Source: Cnuella takakiae (GTDB lineage: Bacteria; Bacteroidota; Bacteroidia; Chitinophagales; Chitinophagaceae). From it: a DNA stretch of 64,000 nucleotides. The notes beneath the pieces were generated by a model. The model was not told the origin of the DNA. It was given only the letters and a program-made list of their open reading frames with translations, and did not search any database. The stretch is taken from the NCBI RefSeq assembly GCF_001953305.1, contig NZ_MTFE01000001.1:1-64000 (forward strand), in the 5' to 3' direction. Below are positions 7,382 through 52,565 of this stretch, in pieces (position 1 is the first letter of the stretch; the number at the start of each line of letters is the position of its first letter). A program made the position numbers and the translations under genes.

Positions 7382-7797
7382 CATTTTCACACCGACTAGT
7401 GAGGCTGCAGATTCCCCTTTCTACTGGAACATAACAGGCAAAAAAGATTTACACCAGCCAGAACCGCTTTCTTGCGCTTCAATTTTAAAGCAGCGATGTT
7501 GTTGTGGTTACCAGCTTTTACCCGTTACCGGCTTTCCGTTGCGTCGCACACTTGTACATTCTTATCGCTATTCGGCAGCAAGGAGGGCTGTAGCAAGTGC
7601 TTCGGCTGCGTTGCTGGTGCCGGGCTTTGTGGCATTAATTACTACCCAAATTTAGGCTTTGCTTTGGCAGGCTTGCAAGGAACTACGGCATAAACACAGG
7701 GGCCAGCCCACGAGGCCTTCTTTTATTCCGTTCCTCCTTGCGCCTAGCCAAATTCAAATGCCTGTACTGCGGTTCATAATTAATCACCTCAAAACCC
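7382..7797. other. intergenic stretch, no supported gene
   Basis: About 416 bp between the zeta-like gene and the RadC-like gene. Short open frames exist but lack a ribosome site, family resemblance or sensible composition. No hairpin followed by T-run was noticed. Confidence 0.5.
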
Positions 7798-41675: not shown

Positions 41676-42797
41676 ATGGAGCCCTCCCCTATTAAGGCTA
41701 CCAAACCAAAGGCGACAAAAACCGAAATAGCCAAGGCTAAAGGAGCCGCTGGTAAAAAAAAGAAGAAAAGCGAGGTATTATTACCTGGTCAAACTTTCAT
41801 TTACCAGCCAAATAGGGTTACAAATGGCCGTTTTGAGCAGTTTACCCTTACGCAGTACAAACTGCTGGCCAGCCTAATCTACCAGTTCCAAAAGGCCATA
41901 CAGCTAGATATGGAAGGCAGGGACTGGCGCCAACTGGAAATGTTTTCCAATGAAGAGAACAAAGATCTGATCCGGGTAGGCATTCCCTTGCATACTATTG
42001 GTAAGCCAAACCAGTACAAAGAAATCGTTGAGCAGGCCACAGGGTTGATGAATGCTAAGACCTATCTAAAAAGCCAGTTAGGTGCAGATTATATCTCCGT
42101 AGCCAGTTTGGTTACCAAAATAGACATCCCGGTAAAAGAAAACGGTATGAGCGTGCTGTACCTGCATATGTACAAAGACGTTGCAAAGCTGCTCATTGAA
42201 ATTGACAAAAAGCAATTGGATAATGGTAAGGCCCAACCAGTGAACTTTACCAGGTACCTCTATGAAGTGGCACTGTCGGCCACCAACAAGTACACTCTCA
42301 AGCTTTACATGCTGCTTTGCTCCTGGCGGCAAAAAGGTGAGTTTTTCATTCCACTTGAGCAGTTATATAAGGACTTGGGATTGGAAGAAGGAGAGTATAA
42401 GAAATTCTTTGATTTTAAACGCCGTATCCTGCTCCCTGTTCAAGCCGACCTGGAAGGTGTAGCAGATTGTTGGTTTGATTGTAATGAGCGAGGATTTGAG
42501 GTAAAGAAGGGGCGTTCTGTAATAGGCTTAAACTTCAAAGTAATTACACAAAAACGGCTACAGGACAAAAGTGAACAAGCCGACCATTGCAGGTATATAC
42601 TGCGGGACCACATGAAATTCAGCCAAAAACAATTAGAAGAGCTGGAGCCCATCTTCAGAGAACAGTTTTTTATGCAGGAGATCCAGGTAAAGATTCTGGA
42701 GCTGATTGACCATGTTAGAAAGAACACACAGACGATCACAAACCCTCAGGCATACATCATAAAAAGCCTTCTAAATGCCTTTGCAAGCAAAGGATAA
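41676..42797 (+). CDS. repA: plasmid replication initiator, Rep_3 (RepB) family
   Basis: A 373-residue initiator. A Lys/Ala-rich tail (about 1-40) precedes two winged-helix domains: the first with TLTQYKLLASLIYQFQKA, the second with TNKYTLKLYMLLCSWRQKG and DLGLEEGEYKKFFDFKRR, the DNA-binding pattern of Rep_3 proteins. These bind iterons as monomers and repress their own gene or pair origins as dimers. Nine iteron-like repeats start 10 bp after its stop, so origin and gene are together. A helical C-terminus (about 300-373) is extra compared with the shortest members. This gene is the main evidence that the window is plasmid DNA. Confidence 0.92.
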   Translation: MEPSPIKATKPKATKTEIAKAKGAAGKKKKKSEVLLPGQTFIYQPNRVTNGRFEQFTLTQYKLLASLIYQFQKAIQLDMEGRDWRQLEMFSNEENKDLIRVGIPLHTIGKPNQYKEIVEQATGLMNAKTYLKSQLGADYISVASLVTKIDIPVKENGMSVLYLHMYKDVAKLLIEIDKKQLDNGKAQPVNFTRYLYEVALSATNKYTLKLYMLLCSWRQKGEFFIPLEQLYKDLGLEEGEYKKFFDFKRRILLPVQADLEGVADCWFDCNERGFEVKKGRSVIGLNFKVITQKRLQDKSEQADHCRYILRDHMKFSQKQLEELEPIFREQFFMQEIQVKILELIDHVRKNTQTITNPQAYIIKSLLNAFASKG

Positions 42798-42806
42798 CAA
42801 TTTTAA

Positions 42807-43570
42807 GTTCGGTTTTTGTCGCCTGCCATATTCAAGTGCTCGGTTTTTGTCGTTATAAAAGTTCGGAAATTGTCTTAACCGGTTCGGAAACTGTCTCTGC
42901 AAAGTTCGGAGTTTGTCGCCCGCATAATTAGGAAACGCTTTGTGGGCTTTACTTTCAGAGCTCCTTATAATCACAACTTGATCTAAGAAAACACTGAGCA
43001 ACAAAAAAAGAGGTTTATAGAATTGATGTTCAGAAGAGAGAAGTTGTCAGAATGGCAGGAAAATACTGTTTCGAAAGAGGTTGAAAGGAAGAAATCTCGA
43101 TTATACAAGAAAAAAAACCTGGCGCCGCGCAGGAATTGTTCGGTTTTTGTCGCTCATCGTTTAAATACAAAACTTCTATAATTCGGTTTTTGTCTCTTAA
43201 TATAGTCTAAAGCATTAGTTATCAGCAATATAAGCGCAATGCAAAAATGAAAAATTTATTTCGATTCCTTCATAATAAAGGGAATAAAATGGTTACTAGT
43301 TAAAGGCCCTTTATTTGTCGTTGCTTAAATACGCAAGAACGGTTAAACATGAACTTATTTAACCGCGAAAGTTGAATTATTCAGTCCAGGATGATGTCTA
43401 TTCCTGCTCACTCACCTAGTTAGTGCAAGATTTCCAACATAAATACAACAAAAAAAGTTCGGTTTTTGTCGCCGAACTAATATATAGCGCTGGTTACCAA
43501 TAACTAAGGGTTTTGTTATTAGTTCAAACAGTCAAAGTTTTGAAATGTCATAAAGTTCGGTTTTTGTCGC
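42807..43570 (+). repeat. iteron array, probable origin of replication
   Basis: Nine directly repeated copies of GTTCGGTTTTTGTCGC or close variants, all on the plus strand: starts at 42807, 42838, 42861, 42882, 42904, 43138, 43181, 43457 and 43555. Copies three to five replace TTTTT by AAATT, AAACT or AGTTT. The last two continue into CGAAC, forming GTTCGG...CCGAAC. The DNA between and after the repeats is AT-rich. The setting right behind a Rep_3 gene makes this the replication origin. Confidence 0.88.
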
Positions 43571-43789
43571 CGAACGTCGATTGTTGATTTATTCTAATTT
43601 ATCAGGTAAACCAGATTATGTGATAAAACTTCACTACTGATATAGTTTTATTACAAACCCTATACCATTAATCACCTTGTAATTATTTTTATTCAAAAAG
43701 TTAGAAGGTGATTAATGTTTACAAATAAATTTTCGTTGAGCTTGTTATCACTTGAAGTTTAGCCTAGCTTTTCGTAGTGATCAAAAGGG

Positions 43790-48485: not shown

Positions 48486-48896
48486 TTATTGTTTTTTCTT
48501 TTTGGGCACTTTGGTTTCTACCAAGATCATGGTGTCCTTACCATTAAAAGCTTCCAAGAACAACACTGTTCCCTTTGTTGTTTGGATGTACTCGTACTTT
48601 TTAGATGGGGTAGGAGTGAAGCTCAAATAGATGGTACCAGCTATCATAAGCAGCCCGATACCTGCCAATAAGTAGCTGATGGACTTACCTAAACCATACA
48701 GGAAGTAACTAAACCCCGTTGGAAAAGACACCCGGTTGATTGTTTGTACTTCTTTTTTCAAGTCAACCTGGAGTTCGTTGATCCGGATGATTACGAACAG
48801 GATTTCGTCATCTAAGGTCGAACCATACCGTATTTTATAGCGGTGCCTAAGCTCTGCCAAAAGTGTTAGGTAGTCTTGTTGTTTCTCCTTTGTCAT
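48486..48896 (-). CDS. hypothetical membrane-anchored protein
   Basis: A 136-residue protein: charged helical N-terminal half (YLTLLAELRHRYKIRYG, IIRINELQVDLKKEV), a membrane helix near residues 70-92 (YLLAGIGLLMIAGTIYL), and a Lys-rich tail (VPKKKK). It overlaps the 3' end of the upstream ParA-like gene by 4 bp, so they form one operon. Family not recognised. Confidence 0.6.
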   Translation of the reverse strand: MTKEKQQDYLTLLAELRHRYKIRYGSTLDDEILFVIIRINELQVDLKKEVQTINRVSFPTGFSYFLYGLGKSISYLLAGIGLLMIAGTIYLSFTPTPSKKYEYIQTTKGTVLFLEAFNGKDTMILVETKVPKKKKQ

Positions 48897-49603
48897 AGTT
48901 TACCCAGCTCCCTGCGGATGACTGTTTTCGCTGCAAAAGATGTATGTCCAGGCAAGCCTTTTCCTGCTGAGATAGCTTCCAGAATGTTCTGGCCGCTGTT
49001 TCGTTCTACCGATATATTACCGAATAATCTGGCGCCTTTAATCGTTCCTTCTTGCATTTTAATAAAAGATTGCGCCTCATCCATTAACTCCGGATGTGCC
49101 TGGAAAGAATACTCATTGACATAAGCGTAAACATCGAAAGCACCTTTCAGGGGTGCCGCAAAACGTTGCAAATAATCCATGCAACTCAAGTAAGCAGGTC
49201 CACCAGCTATAATTACGTTGAAGACAAACCTGGCATTCAGGGTAGTTTCAAACTCCTTGAATTCCTCAACATTAAAGTCGAGGGTAAACAATTTAGGCAG
49301 TTGCTCACTTTCCGGTGCGCCAAAATCCAGGTAATACTCGGCAAAGGAGAGTTCTGCCAGCTCTTCTAAGCTCTGGAACAACTTTTCCCGGTCAATCCGT
49401 TCTATGTTATCCGTAATAGCTACTTCAAGCAGCCGGTCCTTTTCCAGCAGAAATGCCAATTGCCTGGTACTGGTCTTGGTTGATGCGTCAAAGTCGACAA
49501 AAACCGAACTTTGGTGTTCTTCATGCTTTAAAGCCTGCAGGTAAGTAAGCATCGACTTGCCTGCGCCTCCTTTCGCTTGTACGTTGAAATAGAATGTCTT
49601 CAT
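48893..49603 (-). CDS. ParA/MinD-like P-loop ATPase (second)
   Basis: A 236-residue ATPase with Walker A KGGAGKS (residues 11-17) and the Walker A'-like FVDFDASTKTSTRQL. The remainder is more diverged than plasmid ParA. It lies in a three-gene minus-strand operon with a small upstream gene (49616) and a membrane protein (48486). Proteins of this type accompany relaxase modules in Bacteroidota, perhaps positioning the transfer machinery; a second partition system is the alternative. Confidence 0.75.
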   Translation of the reverse strand: MKTFYFNVQAKGGAGKSMLTYLQALKHEEHQSSVFVDFDASTKTSTRQLAFLLEKDRLLEVAITDNIERIDREKLFQSLEELAELSFAEYYLDFGAPESEQLPKLFTLDFNVEEFKEFETTLNARFVFNVIIAGGPAYLSCMDYLQRFAAPLKGAFDVYAYVNEYSFQAHPELMDEAQSFIKMQEGTIKGARLFGNISVERNSGQNILEAISAGKGLPGHTSFAAKTVIRRELGKL

Positions 49604-49615
49604 ATGCTAAGGGTT

Positions 49616-49996
49616 TCATTTTGGTTTGATTGGGCGGCGTAGCAAACTTTCCTTTTCCCGCACCAAAGTGGAGGGATCCGTTAGTGAAAATGGCTGCTCC
49701 ACTGAATTAGTAACGGCCTGATGTCCTGCTGCTTTATCCACCTGTTGGTAATCGGCTCTTGTTGATACTGCTGTTTTCCGGTAACGGGCCAGCCAGTTGC
49801 GAAAGGAATTGGAGTTGAAATCATCTGGCGTCAATTGCAACTGCTTGTAAATCATCTTCAACAGTACAATGGGTTTTTCCCGCAACAAGAACCTGTTTTC
49901 GATAACAAGTGGAAGCAGATCAAATTGCCCGTGGCCTTTACTCAATAGTAGCGTACGGACCAGTTCTGCTGATTCGTTCCCTTTTTTATCTTCCAT
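49616..49996 (-). CDS. hypothetical protein upstream of ParA-like gene
   Basis: A 126-residue helical, basic protein; the middle (KMIYKQLQLTPDDFNSNSFR, then NWLARYRK) looks like a small DNA-binding helical domain. It precedes the ParA-like gene by 12 bp and starts the minus-strand operon, divergent from the mob genes. By position it could be the DNA-binding partner of that ATPase. Family not recognised. Confidence 0.55.
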   Translation of the reverse strand: MEDKKGNESAELVRTLLLSKGHGQFDLLPLVIENRFLLREKPIVLLKMIYKQLQLTPDDFNSNSFRNWLARYRKTAVSTRADYQQVDKAAGHQAVTNSVEQPFSLTDPSTLVREKESLLRRPIKPK

Positions 49997-50213
49997 GTAA
50001 CTAAAATAAATAAAATATTCAGTTTATGATTTAATTTGCTCTATAGATTATTGCTTTTGATGTGTGTTAATGATTTTGAGCGACAAAAAATGAGGTTTGA
50101 TGAAAACGGATGAATCGAAATGAGCGAGGATGGAAATAGTAATGAGCAATTGGGCATAACGATGAAGAAACAGGTCAGAAAATGAACACGGCAGCATGTT
50201 AGGTAGGGGAGGA

Positions 50214-50229
50214 GTTCGGTTTTTGTCGC
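50214..50229 (+). repeat. isolated iteron copy in the mob leader
   Basis: GTTCGGTTTTTGTCGC, identical to the strongest iterons of the replication origin some 7 kb away, stands alone 15 bp before the oriT-like inverted repeats and in the same orientation. Confidence 0.8.
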
Positions 50230-50243
50230 CCATTGCAGGATGT

Positions 50244-50315
50244 ACCTTTGTATACACAAAGGTGTTCCTGCCCTTTACAAGGGGAATCATCCAGCCCTCC
50301 GCAACTCCGGGCTGG
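50244..50315 (+). other. oriT-like region with inverted repeats
   Basis: Two perfect inverted repeats occur in 72 bp: ACCTTTGT-ATAC-ACAAAGGT (50244-50263) and CCAGCCC with GGGCTGG (50291-50297 and 50309-50315). They lie directly upstream of the MobC and relaxase genes, where the origin of transfer is usually placed. The nick site cannot be read from the sequence. Confidence 0.5.
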
Positions 50316-50354
50316 CGTCCATCAAGCGGTGGTCGCAACTCCAAAAAGAATACG

Positions 50355-50732
50355 ATGGAAACACCACTAAAAACCAAAAAAAAGTATCCGGGCTTTTTCT
50401 TCCGTTGTACAGAAGCGGAAAAAGCCAGGTATCAGGTACTGGCAAAATCACAGGGCATGGAGCTTTCTAAGTTGATCCGGCACCGGTTGGCAGGCGATCA
50501 ACCCTTGAAGGATTATACCAGGGAAGAAGCATTTTTTCAACAGTTGAACCTGCTGACCCGGGAAATGAGCTACATCGGCCACAATATTAATCAGGTAACC
50601 ACAGCACTGCACCAGATCAATAACAGCCAGAAGATTGAGGCTGGCGAGTTTGCGCTAATCCTGAGTGAGCTTAAGCGGTATAATGATCTGCGTGATCAAT
50701 TGAGCTACCAACTCCAAAAAGCCTTTTTCTGA
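50355..50732 (+). CDS. mobC: MobC-like relaxosome accessory protein
   Basis: A 125-residue basic protein; ATG 50355 chosen because the upstream open frame covers the oriT-like DNA. It begins with a Lys-rich tail, then a ribbon-helix-helix-like segment (FRCTEAEKARYQVLAKS, LSKLIRHRLAG) and the MobC helices (LTREMSYIGHNINQVTTALHQ), typical of MobC accessory proteins that melt oriT for the relaxase. It ends 1 bp before the relaxase gene. Confidence 0.85.
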   Translation: METPLKTKKKYPGFFFRCTEAEKARYQVLAKSQGMELSKLIRHRLAGDQPLKDYTREEAFFQQLNLLTREMSYIGHNINQVTTALHQINNSQKIEAGEFALILSELKRYNDLRDQLSYQLQKAFF

Positions 50733-50733
50733 T

Positions 50734-51963
50734 ATGAAGCTTGTATTTAAGATCATGCCCCCGGCCGCTTCTTTCCATGGAGTGGATTACAACGAAAAGA
50801 AGCAGGCCCAGGATGTTGCCCGCAGGGTTCACTTTCAAAATTTTGGTTACCTCCAAGAGCGATCGGAGATCAGCCGGCAGGAGTTCAAGGAGTATTTTGA
50901 AAAATATTCGGCCCGTAACCACCGGGTGCAAAAAAAGCAGTTCCATGCAATCTTAAGCTGCAAAGGCGCCAGCTATAGTCATGAGCAACTGAAAGAGTAC
51001 GCCTTGCAGATCATGCAACAGATGGGCTATGGCGATAATCCCCTGCTGATCTATGAGCACCACGATACCCGCCACAATCATGTGCATATTGTTACATCCC
51101 GCATAGCCCCTGATGGAAGCAAAATTGCTCATGATATGGAAGGGAAAAAAGCAAATACTTTACTTACCCAGCTTTTGCAATTGGACCTTAAAGCCGCGCT
51201 GCAGCAGGACCTGGCAGAGGTATTGGCATACAGGGCATCAACCACCCCTCAATTACTGCTGCTGATGGAACTAAAGGGCTATACCAGCAAGCAGGTAGGA
51301 GCAGCTTATCATTTTTTCAAGCACGGCAAAGAAGTGGGGTACACCTCTCTGGCTGCTTTAAACAATAGAATAGGGGAGGGGGAAGAGCACCGTAAAGACC
51401 AGATAAAAGCTATCATCCACAAGTATCAGGGCCGGTACACTACCCGGTTGGAGCGGGAGCAGGAGCTTTTTGTACGTAGCAGCGGACAAGTGCAATATGG
51501 GAGCGACCTAACCCGGTACCTTCAGGAGAAGCACGGTTTGCAGTTTTATTTCTTTTCGAAAGGTGGACTGCCGCCTTACGGTTATGCCCTCATCGATCAC
51601 AAAACAAAGACGGTATACAAAGGAGGGGACATTATGCCTTTGGCTGCACTTACCCAAAAAGCGGATAGAAGGATGAAAGTACTGCCGCTTGCACCTGAAC
51701 CTAAAGTACTCGGAAAAAGCGCTAAAGAATGGGAGACAATTTCCGAACTCTTGACCCTAAACAACGACGGCGCTACCAGAGCTGAAAAACAAATGCCTGA
51801 GGCAAGCGGACTGGGTGAAATGTTTGCTGCTTTTGACCGGTTTATAGATGGCATAATTGCCGGAAATGAAATAGACAGCCATGCAGCCGGTGGCCACCAA
51901 CGCTCCAGTAAGGACAAGGAAGAACAAAAAAGAAAATCAAGACAAAAAGGGTTGGGTAGATGA
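50734..51963 (+). CDS. relaxase/mobilization nuclease
   Basis: A 409-residue relaxase of the PF03432 type. Candidate nicking tyrosine is Y19 in GVDYNEKKQ; the metal-binding HUH-type motif is H114-N-H116-V-H118 in DTRHNHVHIVTSR. It nicks oriT and stays attached to the 5' end to pilot the strand through the secretion channel. The C-terminal half (about 200-409) is helical and Lys-rich with no helicase motifs. ATGA overlap with the following ParA-like gene. Confidence 0.9.
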   Translation: MKLVFKIMPPAASFHGVDYNEKKQAQDVARRVHFQNFGYLQERSEISRQEFKEYFEKYSARNHRVQKKQFHAILSCKGASYSHEQLKEYALQIMQQMGYGDNPLLIYEHHDTRHNHVHIVTSRIAPDGSKIAHDMEGKKANTLLTQLLQLDLKAALQQDLAEVLAYRASTTPQLLLLMELKGYTSKQVGAAYHFFKHGKEVGYTSLAALNNRIGEGEEHRKDQIKAIIHKYQGRYTTRLEREQELFVRSSGQVQYGSDLTRYLQEKHGLQFYFFSKGGLPPYGYALIDHKTKTVYKGGDIMPLAALTQKADRRMKVLPLAPEPKVLGKSAKEWETISELLTLNNDGATRAEKQMPEASGLGEMFAAFDRFIDGIIAGNEIDSHAAGGHQRSSKDKEEQKRKSRQKGLGR

Positions 51964-52565
51964 AAACCATATTTTTCTCAGGACTTGCAGGTGGCAGTGG
52001 TAAAACCACCATGGCCATCAATTTCGCCAGGTACCTTCACTATTACGAAAAATCCAAGGTCATGCTCCTTTCCTGCGACATGCCTTCGGTTTTGCCCTTT
52101 TTAGAAGCGCAAGCTCCTTTTCCTTTCGCAGCCCGTGATATTTCTCCTTCACAGTGTGCCGCCTATCTCCAAGCCATTGCTGCAGGTGCTCAGGCCCCGG
52201 CATATATGATAGTTGATCTGCCTTCCGGTGCAACACTTGAAATATTACGGCTGCTGCCAGTAGCACATCATCATGTTATGCCTTTTGAGTACAGCATGGT
52301 ACATTATGGCAAGCTGCAGACCTTTTTGCATTTATTGAATAAGTGGGCACCGGAAAGTATCCCTCTGTTGTTGCCCAACAAAGTAAGCAGGGCAAACGCA
52401 ACCATAAAAAGCCTATTTGATAACTGGTTCAGGCAAAGCAGCCTATTTGTTTTGCCTTTTGTAACAACATCTTCAGCACATGCTGTTCCCTCAACAGCAC
52501 CCTTTAACCAACTAGAATTTCAAAACCTACGCCCTGTTTTTAATCGCATGATGCATATTTTATAA
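51960..52565 (+). CDS. ParA-like ATPase of the transfer region (TraA position)
   Basis: A 201-residue P-loop ATPase: GLAGGSGKTTMAINFARYL contains Walker A, then SCDMPSVLPFL and MIVDLPSGAT as A' and B. Bacteroidetes conjugative elements carry such a gene at the head of the tra operon (often called TraA). It is coupled to the relaxase by a 4-bp overlap. It may locate the relaxosome or the DNA at the pole; unproven. Confidence 0.8.
   Translation: MKTIFFSGLAGGSGKTTMAINFARYLHYYEKSKVMLLSCDMPSVLPFLEAQAPFPFAARDISPSQCAAYLQAIAAGAQAPAYMIVDLPSGATLEILRLLPVAHHHVMPFEYSMVHYGKLQTFLHLLNKWAPESIPLLLPNKVSRANATIKSLFDNWFRQSSLFVLPFVTTSSAHAVPSTAPFNQLEFQNLRPVFNRMMHIL

Follow-up and report, generated by a model that had tools for sequence, protein, structure and literature searches.

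A replication iteron at the edge of a putative oriT, overlapping a predicted mob promoter, on a plasmid-like contig of Cnuella takakiae

The plasmid-like contig and its transfer region

The window analysed here comprises the first 64,000 bases of contig C3 (78,090 bp in total) of Cnuella takakiae. C3 is plasmid-like and carries a rep gene, an iteron array, ArdC, ParA-like genes, an oriT, mobC, a relaxase gene and a run of tra-like ORFs, within which sits a Bacteroidota-type TraG-family transfer ATPase (features of the region are listed in Table 1). The rep product has both Rep_3 domains above the Pfam gathering score, and its relatives carry the annotation 'replication initiation protein'; a PDB sequence search with Rep returned weak initiator matches only (E ~0.9, RepE-like). 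Nine iterons in a single orientation lie downstream of the rep stop codon, so that the locus combines a Rep_3 (WH1-WH2) initiator with a direct-repeat iteron array beside rep, as in Rep_3 iteron replicons. In most relatives, too, units spaced about 22 bp apart form a tandem array, with separate units past a gap, and the iteron sequence differs in several of them.

Table 1. Features of the replication and mobilization regions of contig C3 (positions as in the window).
Feature	Position	Strand	Remarks
rep, Rep_3-type initiator (WH1-WH2)	41676..42797	+	Pfam Rep3_C 7.4e-09, Rep3_N 1.2e-04
Off-origin iteron in rep, nt 36-52	41711..41727	-	motif at 41714
Putative oriV, nine iterons	42807..43571	+	origin role suggested by layout common to relatives
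oriV iteron cores	42808, 42839, 42862, 42883, 42905, 43139, 43182, 43458, 43556	+	
ParA-like gene	48893-49603	-	beside oriT
Off-origin iteron in ParA-like gene, nt 95-111	49493..49509	-	motif at 49496
Small gene	49616-49996	-	beside oriT
Iteron GTTCGGTTTTTGTCGCC	50214..50230	+	contains TTTG at 50222-50225; intergenic
Predicted mob promoter TTTG-N17-TACCTTTG	50222..50250	+	consensus match
Putative oriT, nested palindrome	50235..50271	+	outer arms GCAGGA/TCCTGC
Putative oriT, inner palindrome ACCTTTGTATACACAAAGGT	50244-50263	+	8-bp perfect arms
Putative oriT, second hairpin CCCTTTACAAGGGG	50271..50284	+	
Putative oriT, third inverted repeat	50291..50315	+	7-bp arms; loop with CGCAACT at 50300-50306
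mobC (NikA-like)	50355..50732	+	Pfam NikA-like 1.5e-09
Relaxase	50734..51963	+	Pfam Relaxase 2.7e-19
Off-origin iteron variant in relaxase gene	51732..51751	-	AGTTCGGAAATTGTCT, as in oriV iteron 42862

A sequence-only reading of this DNA had placed inverted repeats upstream of mobC-relaxase and guessed that they were oriT-like. The placement is right, with mobC starting at 50355 and the relaxase gene at 50734, and the guess gains support from homology: 50235-50315 is recognised as a putative oriT by its similarity to six other loci, including Bacteroides plasmids. Alignment of the seven sequences (the window, pBF9343, pBFY46, pBACSA01, an element in genome G194, Pontibacter kalidii and Persicobacter) yielded 22 invariant columns, and the aligned structures adjoin mob genes in all seven loci. 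The shared order is GC(A/G)(A/G)GATGT, the inner palindrome, the returning outer arm, the second hairpin and a third element with CGC(A/G)ACT; the CGC and ACT of the third-repeat loop are invariant in 7/7 aligned sequences, and in Persicobacter the third element has no evident arms. The features of a pBF9343-type oriT are thus found in the window, namely a nested palindrome after GCARGATGT, a second hairpin and a CGC(A/G)ACT element, adjoining mobC and a related relaxase gene. As single-stranded DNA, the window oriT has a fold that beats 199 of 200 shuffles (z -2.9). A variant of the structure is present in Mucilaginibacter and Pedobacter plasmids.

On the other side of the oriT, neither the ParA-like gene nor the small gene gave a Pfam or NCBIfam match at E 0.001. 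Relatives of the ParA-like gene, at 54-55% identity, lie near related mob genes in G194 and in a further genome (G116). The G194 element (G194:C13 37104-40196; L050 17104-20000 plus L051 1-196) is apparently integrated and carries a homologous ParA-like gene and oriT. Set against the window, its mobC-relaxase pair is flipped with respect to the oriT, and its contig yielded no Rep relative.

The iteron at 50214 and other copies outside the origin

The sequence GTTCGGTTTTTGTCGCC at 50214-50230 is identical over all 17 bases to the oriV iterons at 42807, 43457 and 43555, which bears out the earlier description of a perfect iteron copy far from the origin: the nearest oriV iteron is 6.6 kb distant. 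A search of the window allowing up to 3 mismatches returned 10 matches, versus 0.09 expected from shuffles, and the exact 14-base core occurs seven times in the 5.7-Mb genome, every time on C3. From the end of the iteron it is 4 bp to the outer oriT arm (GCAGGATGT at 50235) and 13 bp to the inner palindrome. The site had been described as lying 15 bp from two inverted repeats; those repeats are real (8-bp and 7-bp arms), but the spacing has to be replaced by these two values and the number of stems raised to three.

The candidate role of the iteron as part of the oriT itself was dropped because no iteron stands at that place in the six other aligned sequences, nor in the Mucilaginibacter and Pedobacter regions. 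Likewise rejected was the idea that the oriT palindromes of the relatives are iteron pairs, the scores of pBF9343 and pBACSA01 being within the shuffle range. The palindrome arms of the relatives have GTTTTTGT in common with iterons. Those of pBFY46 (L009 519-560) and G194 (L050 18450-18490) contain GTTTTTGTCC, the core of the Bacteroides iteron, possibly by chance.

Contrary to the earlier description, the 50214 iteron is not a lone copy. The motif [TC]TCGGNNNNTGTC occurs 13 times on the 78,090-bp C3, nine times in oriV and four times off-origin, at 41714 (-), 49496 (-), 50215 (+) and 51735 (-), and three of the four off-origin copies are in coding sequence (rep, the ParA-like gene and the relaxase gene). 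We built a weight matrix from the nine oriV copies and scanned C3 with it, using 60 simulated contigs as the null. The four off-origin sites score 23.2-26.9, the maximum across the simulated contigs being 22.1 and the expected number of hits above 18 being 0.05 per simulated contig; three further places on C3 score 13-17, inside the null range. The call at 51735 is weaker than the others because it depends on counting two degenerate oriV iterons, and under a matrix without these it scores 15.8, no higher than shuffles. Synonymous-codon shuffles of 12 genes gave 0.16 expected intragenic sites versus 3 observed, a comparison that serves as a guide rather than a strict test, the motif having been picked after looking. 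The 50214 site is therefore real, but it is one of several off-origin iterons, well beyond chance. Since the site is identical to oriV iterons, Rep binding at 50214-50230 is very plausible.

Related plasmids and conservation of the pairing

The same pairing of iteron and oriT had been proposed as something to look for in related plasmids, with its absence counting against the idea. Among the relatives examined, five combine a related Rep with a related mob module (pBF9343, pBFY46, pBACSA01, M. robiniae and M. kameinonensis), and none of them carries an iteron beside the oriT. These relatives are distant (Rep 26-37% and relaxase 32-38% identity to the window), so this is a weak form of the refutation; what the missing pairing, as judged from these sequences, argues against is a conserved device of ancestral origin, not a function in the C. 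takakiae plasmid.

No close relative of the plasmid was found among the family genomes, class genomes, viral_contigs or genome_contigs. With the Rep protein as query, 5 of 244 family genomes had a match, as did 2 of 395 class genomes, the genome of C. takakiae included in both counts, and a related-locus search with Rep in viral_contigs and genome_contigs returned none. Searching for the tandem-iteron pattern matched 33 stretches in genome_contigs, one with a strong Rep match (L079, M. kameinonensis, 37%) and three with weak partial ones (L086, L062 and L076); it returned none in 394 family genomes besides the window's own, and three stretches in viral_contigs. One of these three contains a Rep relative (L109), in a record whose 8 iterons all lie in one cluster and which lacks a relaxase match. 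The exact 17-mer added three more stretches of viral_contigs (L112-L114), in the searched part of which neither Rep nor mob had a match. Across the whole M. kameinonensis genome, the tandem-iteron pattern occurred at two places on another contig, no more than in the reversed control.

Ten plasmids or contigs were then compared for off-origin sites, each with its own iteron matrix and with rep plus oriV as the matrix interval. Iteron-strength sites outside that interval were detected in 3/10 (the window, M. robiniae and R. mali). In M. robiniae, a lone, full-strength iteron at 52050 (NZ_CP051683; L091 4050-4068) has a recombinase gene on one side and arsR on the other; the palindromes around it could form a resolution site. 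The R. mali plasmid has a lone iteron of its first replicon at L006 17887-17909, in the 5' part of a second rep gene. Contig G006 has opposite-strand iteron copies within rep and in the oriV interval. Six others of the ten, namely pBF9343, pBFY46, pBACSA01, M. kameinonensis C13, G172 C23 and G273 C14, are without off-origin sites near iteron strength (best scores 9.8-12.6, versus at least 18.8 for their oriV iterons), bearing in mind that three of the contigs (G172, G006 and G273) are possibly incomplete. By exact pattern, no off-origin iteron occurs in the IMG/VR record G781. Together, the sequences suggest that off-origin iterons arise at differing places in one plasmid family.

A k-mer test of the oriT flanks of ten plasmids or contigs, four of them with no Rep assigned (PAMB04274, Pontibacter, Persicobacter and Pedobacter), detected an iteron-type repeat in the window only. 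One 12-mer inside the palindrome of pBFY46 matches that plasmid's own iterons with one mismatch, and the remaining hits are TTGATACC elements, AT-rich repeats or other repeats. Counted on both strands, TTGATACC has 23 copies in pBF9343 (L008), 15 in pBFY46 (L009) and 10 in pBACSA01 (L010), which are plasmids of 34-40 kb. Often the copies are arranged as direct pairs with a separation of exactly 44 bp, in other cases of 100 bp, among them copies in the oriV-oriT gap and upstream of the relaxase gene in pBF9343, and these pairs look like operator pairs of a plasmid-wide regulator.

A predicted mob promoter and possible roles of the site

The spacer of Bacteroidota promoters ranges from 17 to 23 bp. 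A TAnnTTTG at -7 is described for these promoters, joined in Bacteroides by a TTTG near -33 (PMC7366714, PMC12632263); the -33 element is a weak part of the consensus and is reported as not identified in Flavobacterium johnsoniae (PMC7366714). In the window, TACCTTTG at 50243-50250 lies in the left arm of the oriT palindrome, is the sole TAnnTTTG in 49480-50420 (941 bp, both strands) and is separated by 17 bp from the iteron TTTG (50222-50225). As the iteron holds the -33 TTTG of the only TAnnTTTG upstream of mobC, a link to mob transcription gains an anatomical basis that the earlier description had not brought up. Full TTG-N17-23-TAnnTTTG matches number five on C3 (78,090 bp), the mob one included, and among the 13 iteron motif copies only that at 50215 has a same-strand TAnnTTTG within 60 bases. 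Rough arithmetic gives a probability of ~1% for a full promoter match by chance on the mob strand of the 358-bp gap and, given a promoter in this gap, of ~5% for chance overlap of its -33 box with the 17-bp site; at that value, the promoter-iteron overlap is suggestive only.

In pBF9343, pBFY46 and pBACSA01, TAnnTTTG lies 25-30 bp upstream of the oriT and outside it, with a TTG at spacer 20 in pBF9343 and pBFY46 and no TTG at spacer 14-25 in pBACSA01. TAnnTTTG was not found in three of the six other mob upstream regions scanned (M. robiniae, PAMB04274 and Pontibacter). With these three regions and the missing TTG of pBACSA01, the family as a whole does not follow a rule of placing a promoter here.

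We put forward, as the likeliest of the readings considered though possible rather than probable, that the 50214 site is a Rep operator over the mobC-relaxase promoter, repressing mob and tying transfer to replication. With Rep on the iteron, the -33 TTTG of the predicted promoter would be masked and mobC-relaxase transcription lowered; where Rep is scarce, for example just after entry into a new cell, or is drawn off by the nine oriV iterons, the mob genes would be expressed. What the sequence shows directly is the identity to oriV iterons, the excess over chance, the distance of 4 bp to a homologous oriT and the overlap with the only consensus promoter found there; that Rep binds, that the promoter is active and repressed, and that transfer is affected are inferences. 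A transcriptional role would also suit the copies at 41714 and 49496, each of which falls in the opening ~110 nt of its gene (rep and the ParA-like gene, respectively). Against an operator stand the lack of the pairing in 5/5 relatives with both modules, the 51735 site, which is not at a gene start, and the facts that a promoter at this place is no family rule and that the -33 element is weak. A broader proposal, rather unlikely in our estimation, makes Rep a plasmid-wide regulator with iterons as operators in rep, the ParA-like gene, the mob promoter and the relaxase gene, in which the balance of free Rep against iterons would set conjugation.

Among the other explanations, the strongest is that off-origin iterons bind Rep and pair with oriV by handcuffing or looping, lowering copy number, the oriT position being incidental. 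We consider this unlikely as the account of the 50214 site, but a serious contender. It fits four off-origin sites of mixed orientation within 10 kb, a site in rep (41714) that is inverted relative to oriV and only 1.1 kb away, off-origin iterons elsewhere in the M. robiniae and R. mali plasmids, and the reported precedent of RK2, in which removal of i1 or i10 raised copy number about two-fold (PMC6961859). However, three of the four sites are located past oriV at distances of 5.9-8.2 kb, the overlap with a promoter is left unexplained, and off-origin copies are not general, given the low best scores in six plasmids or contigs and the lack of any in G781. Operator and copy-number roles can coexist. 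It is quite improbable that the site is instead a relic of a time when oriV and oriT were neighbours, an insertion of ~6.6 kb having left one distal iteron at the oriT. The order rep - oriV - oriT - mobC - relaxase - ParA in pBF9343, pBFY46 and pBACSA01 agrees with such a history, as does the orientation of the 50214 site, which is that of the nine oriV iterons; yet the last pBF9343 iteron (7443-7463) is ~650 bp from the oriT (8116), and neither the three opposite-orientation off-origin copies nor the perfect preservation of a relic would be explained.

Origins alpha and beta of R6K, which are linked to oriT alpha and oriT beta, have lone iterons, and the site might by analogy be a secondary origin or looping partner to which Rep at oriV would loop and where replication would start. 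One R6K-like plasmid is reported to have its oriTs within the alpha and beta inverted repeats (PMC3332091), IncX plasmids to have two oriTs, one of them near the rep gene (PMC3402527), and in the window a stretch at 50000-50049 is 84% AT. This arrangement nevertheless appears very improbable: the pairing is not conserved, no close kinship of Rep to pi emerged, and no exact DnaA box (TTWTNCACA) occurs in 49000-51000, an argument of little power as none occurs in the oriV array either (nearest 44179). We give a similarly remote chance to a fortuitous or codon-driven resemblance that Rep does not bind. In its favour are a short, T-rich core, the location of three off-origin copies out of four in coding sequence, and single 17-mer copies in three viral_contigs stretches without a Rep or mob match; against this, the off-origin scores exceed every simulated contig, codon shuffling falls short of the intragenic sites seen (with the same proviso about motif choice), and the copy beside the oriT is intergenic and exact over 17 bases.

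The balance of plasmid copying versus transfer is often credited to separate regulators. If the operator reading is true, copy number and conjugation would be linked in a simple way in Bacteroidota plasmids, through Rep seated on a mob promoter beside the oriT. Lone control iterons and an oriT beside a replication origin are already known; a mob promoter next to an oriT whose -33 box is a full iteron, or any Rep iteron on a mob promoter, did not come up among the papers listed in literature searches, as judged by titles and abstract openings.

Known systems resemble the locus in part. Lone iterons i1 and i10 of RK2 (IncP-1), mutually inverted on either side of oriV, are described as single iterons outside the minimal origin and as targets of the Rep protein TrfA (PMC6961859), and the 50214 site is likewise a full iteron outside the oriV array. 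Whereas the RK2 pair flanks oriV and i10 is conserved across IncP-1 groups, the C. takakiae site lies 6.6 kb from oriV, at the oriT edge on the predicted mob promoter, and has no counterpart at the oriT in 5/5 relatives. Replication-origin DNA adjoins oriT in R6K-like and IncX plasmids too (PMC3332091, PMC3402527), but these have three origins, long inverted repeats and two oriTs, in contrast to one oriT and no sign of a second origin in the C. takakiae plasmid. Closest in content are pBF9343, pBFY46 and pBACSA01, with a related Rep, a similar oriV and homologous oriT, mobC, relaxase and ParA; they differ in having oriV directly before oriT, an iteron reading TTGGGTTTTTGTCCC and none beside the oriT. 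The initiator RctB of V. cholerae is also of the iteron type and has control sites outside its array, one of them in the promoter of its own gene (PMC11711613), but these are separate site types (29/39-mers and crtS), whereas the off-origin sites of C. takakiae are plain iterons and their proposed target is the mob genes.
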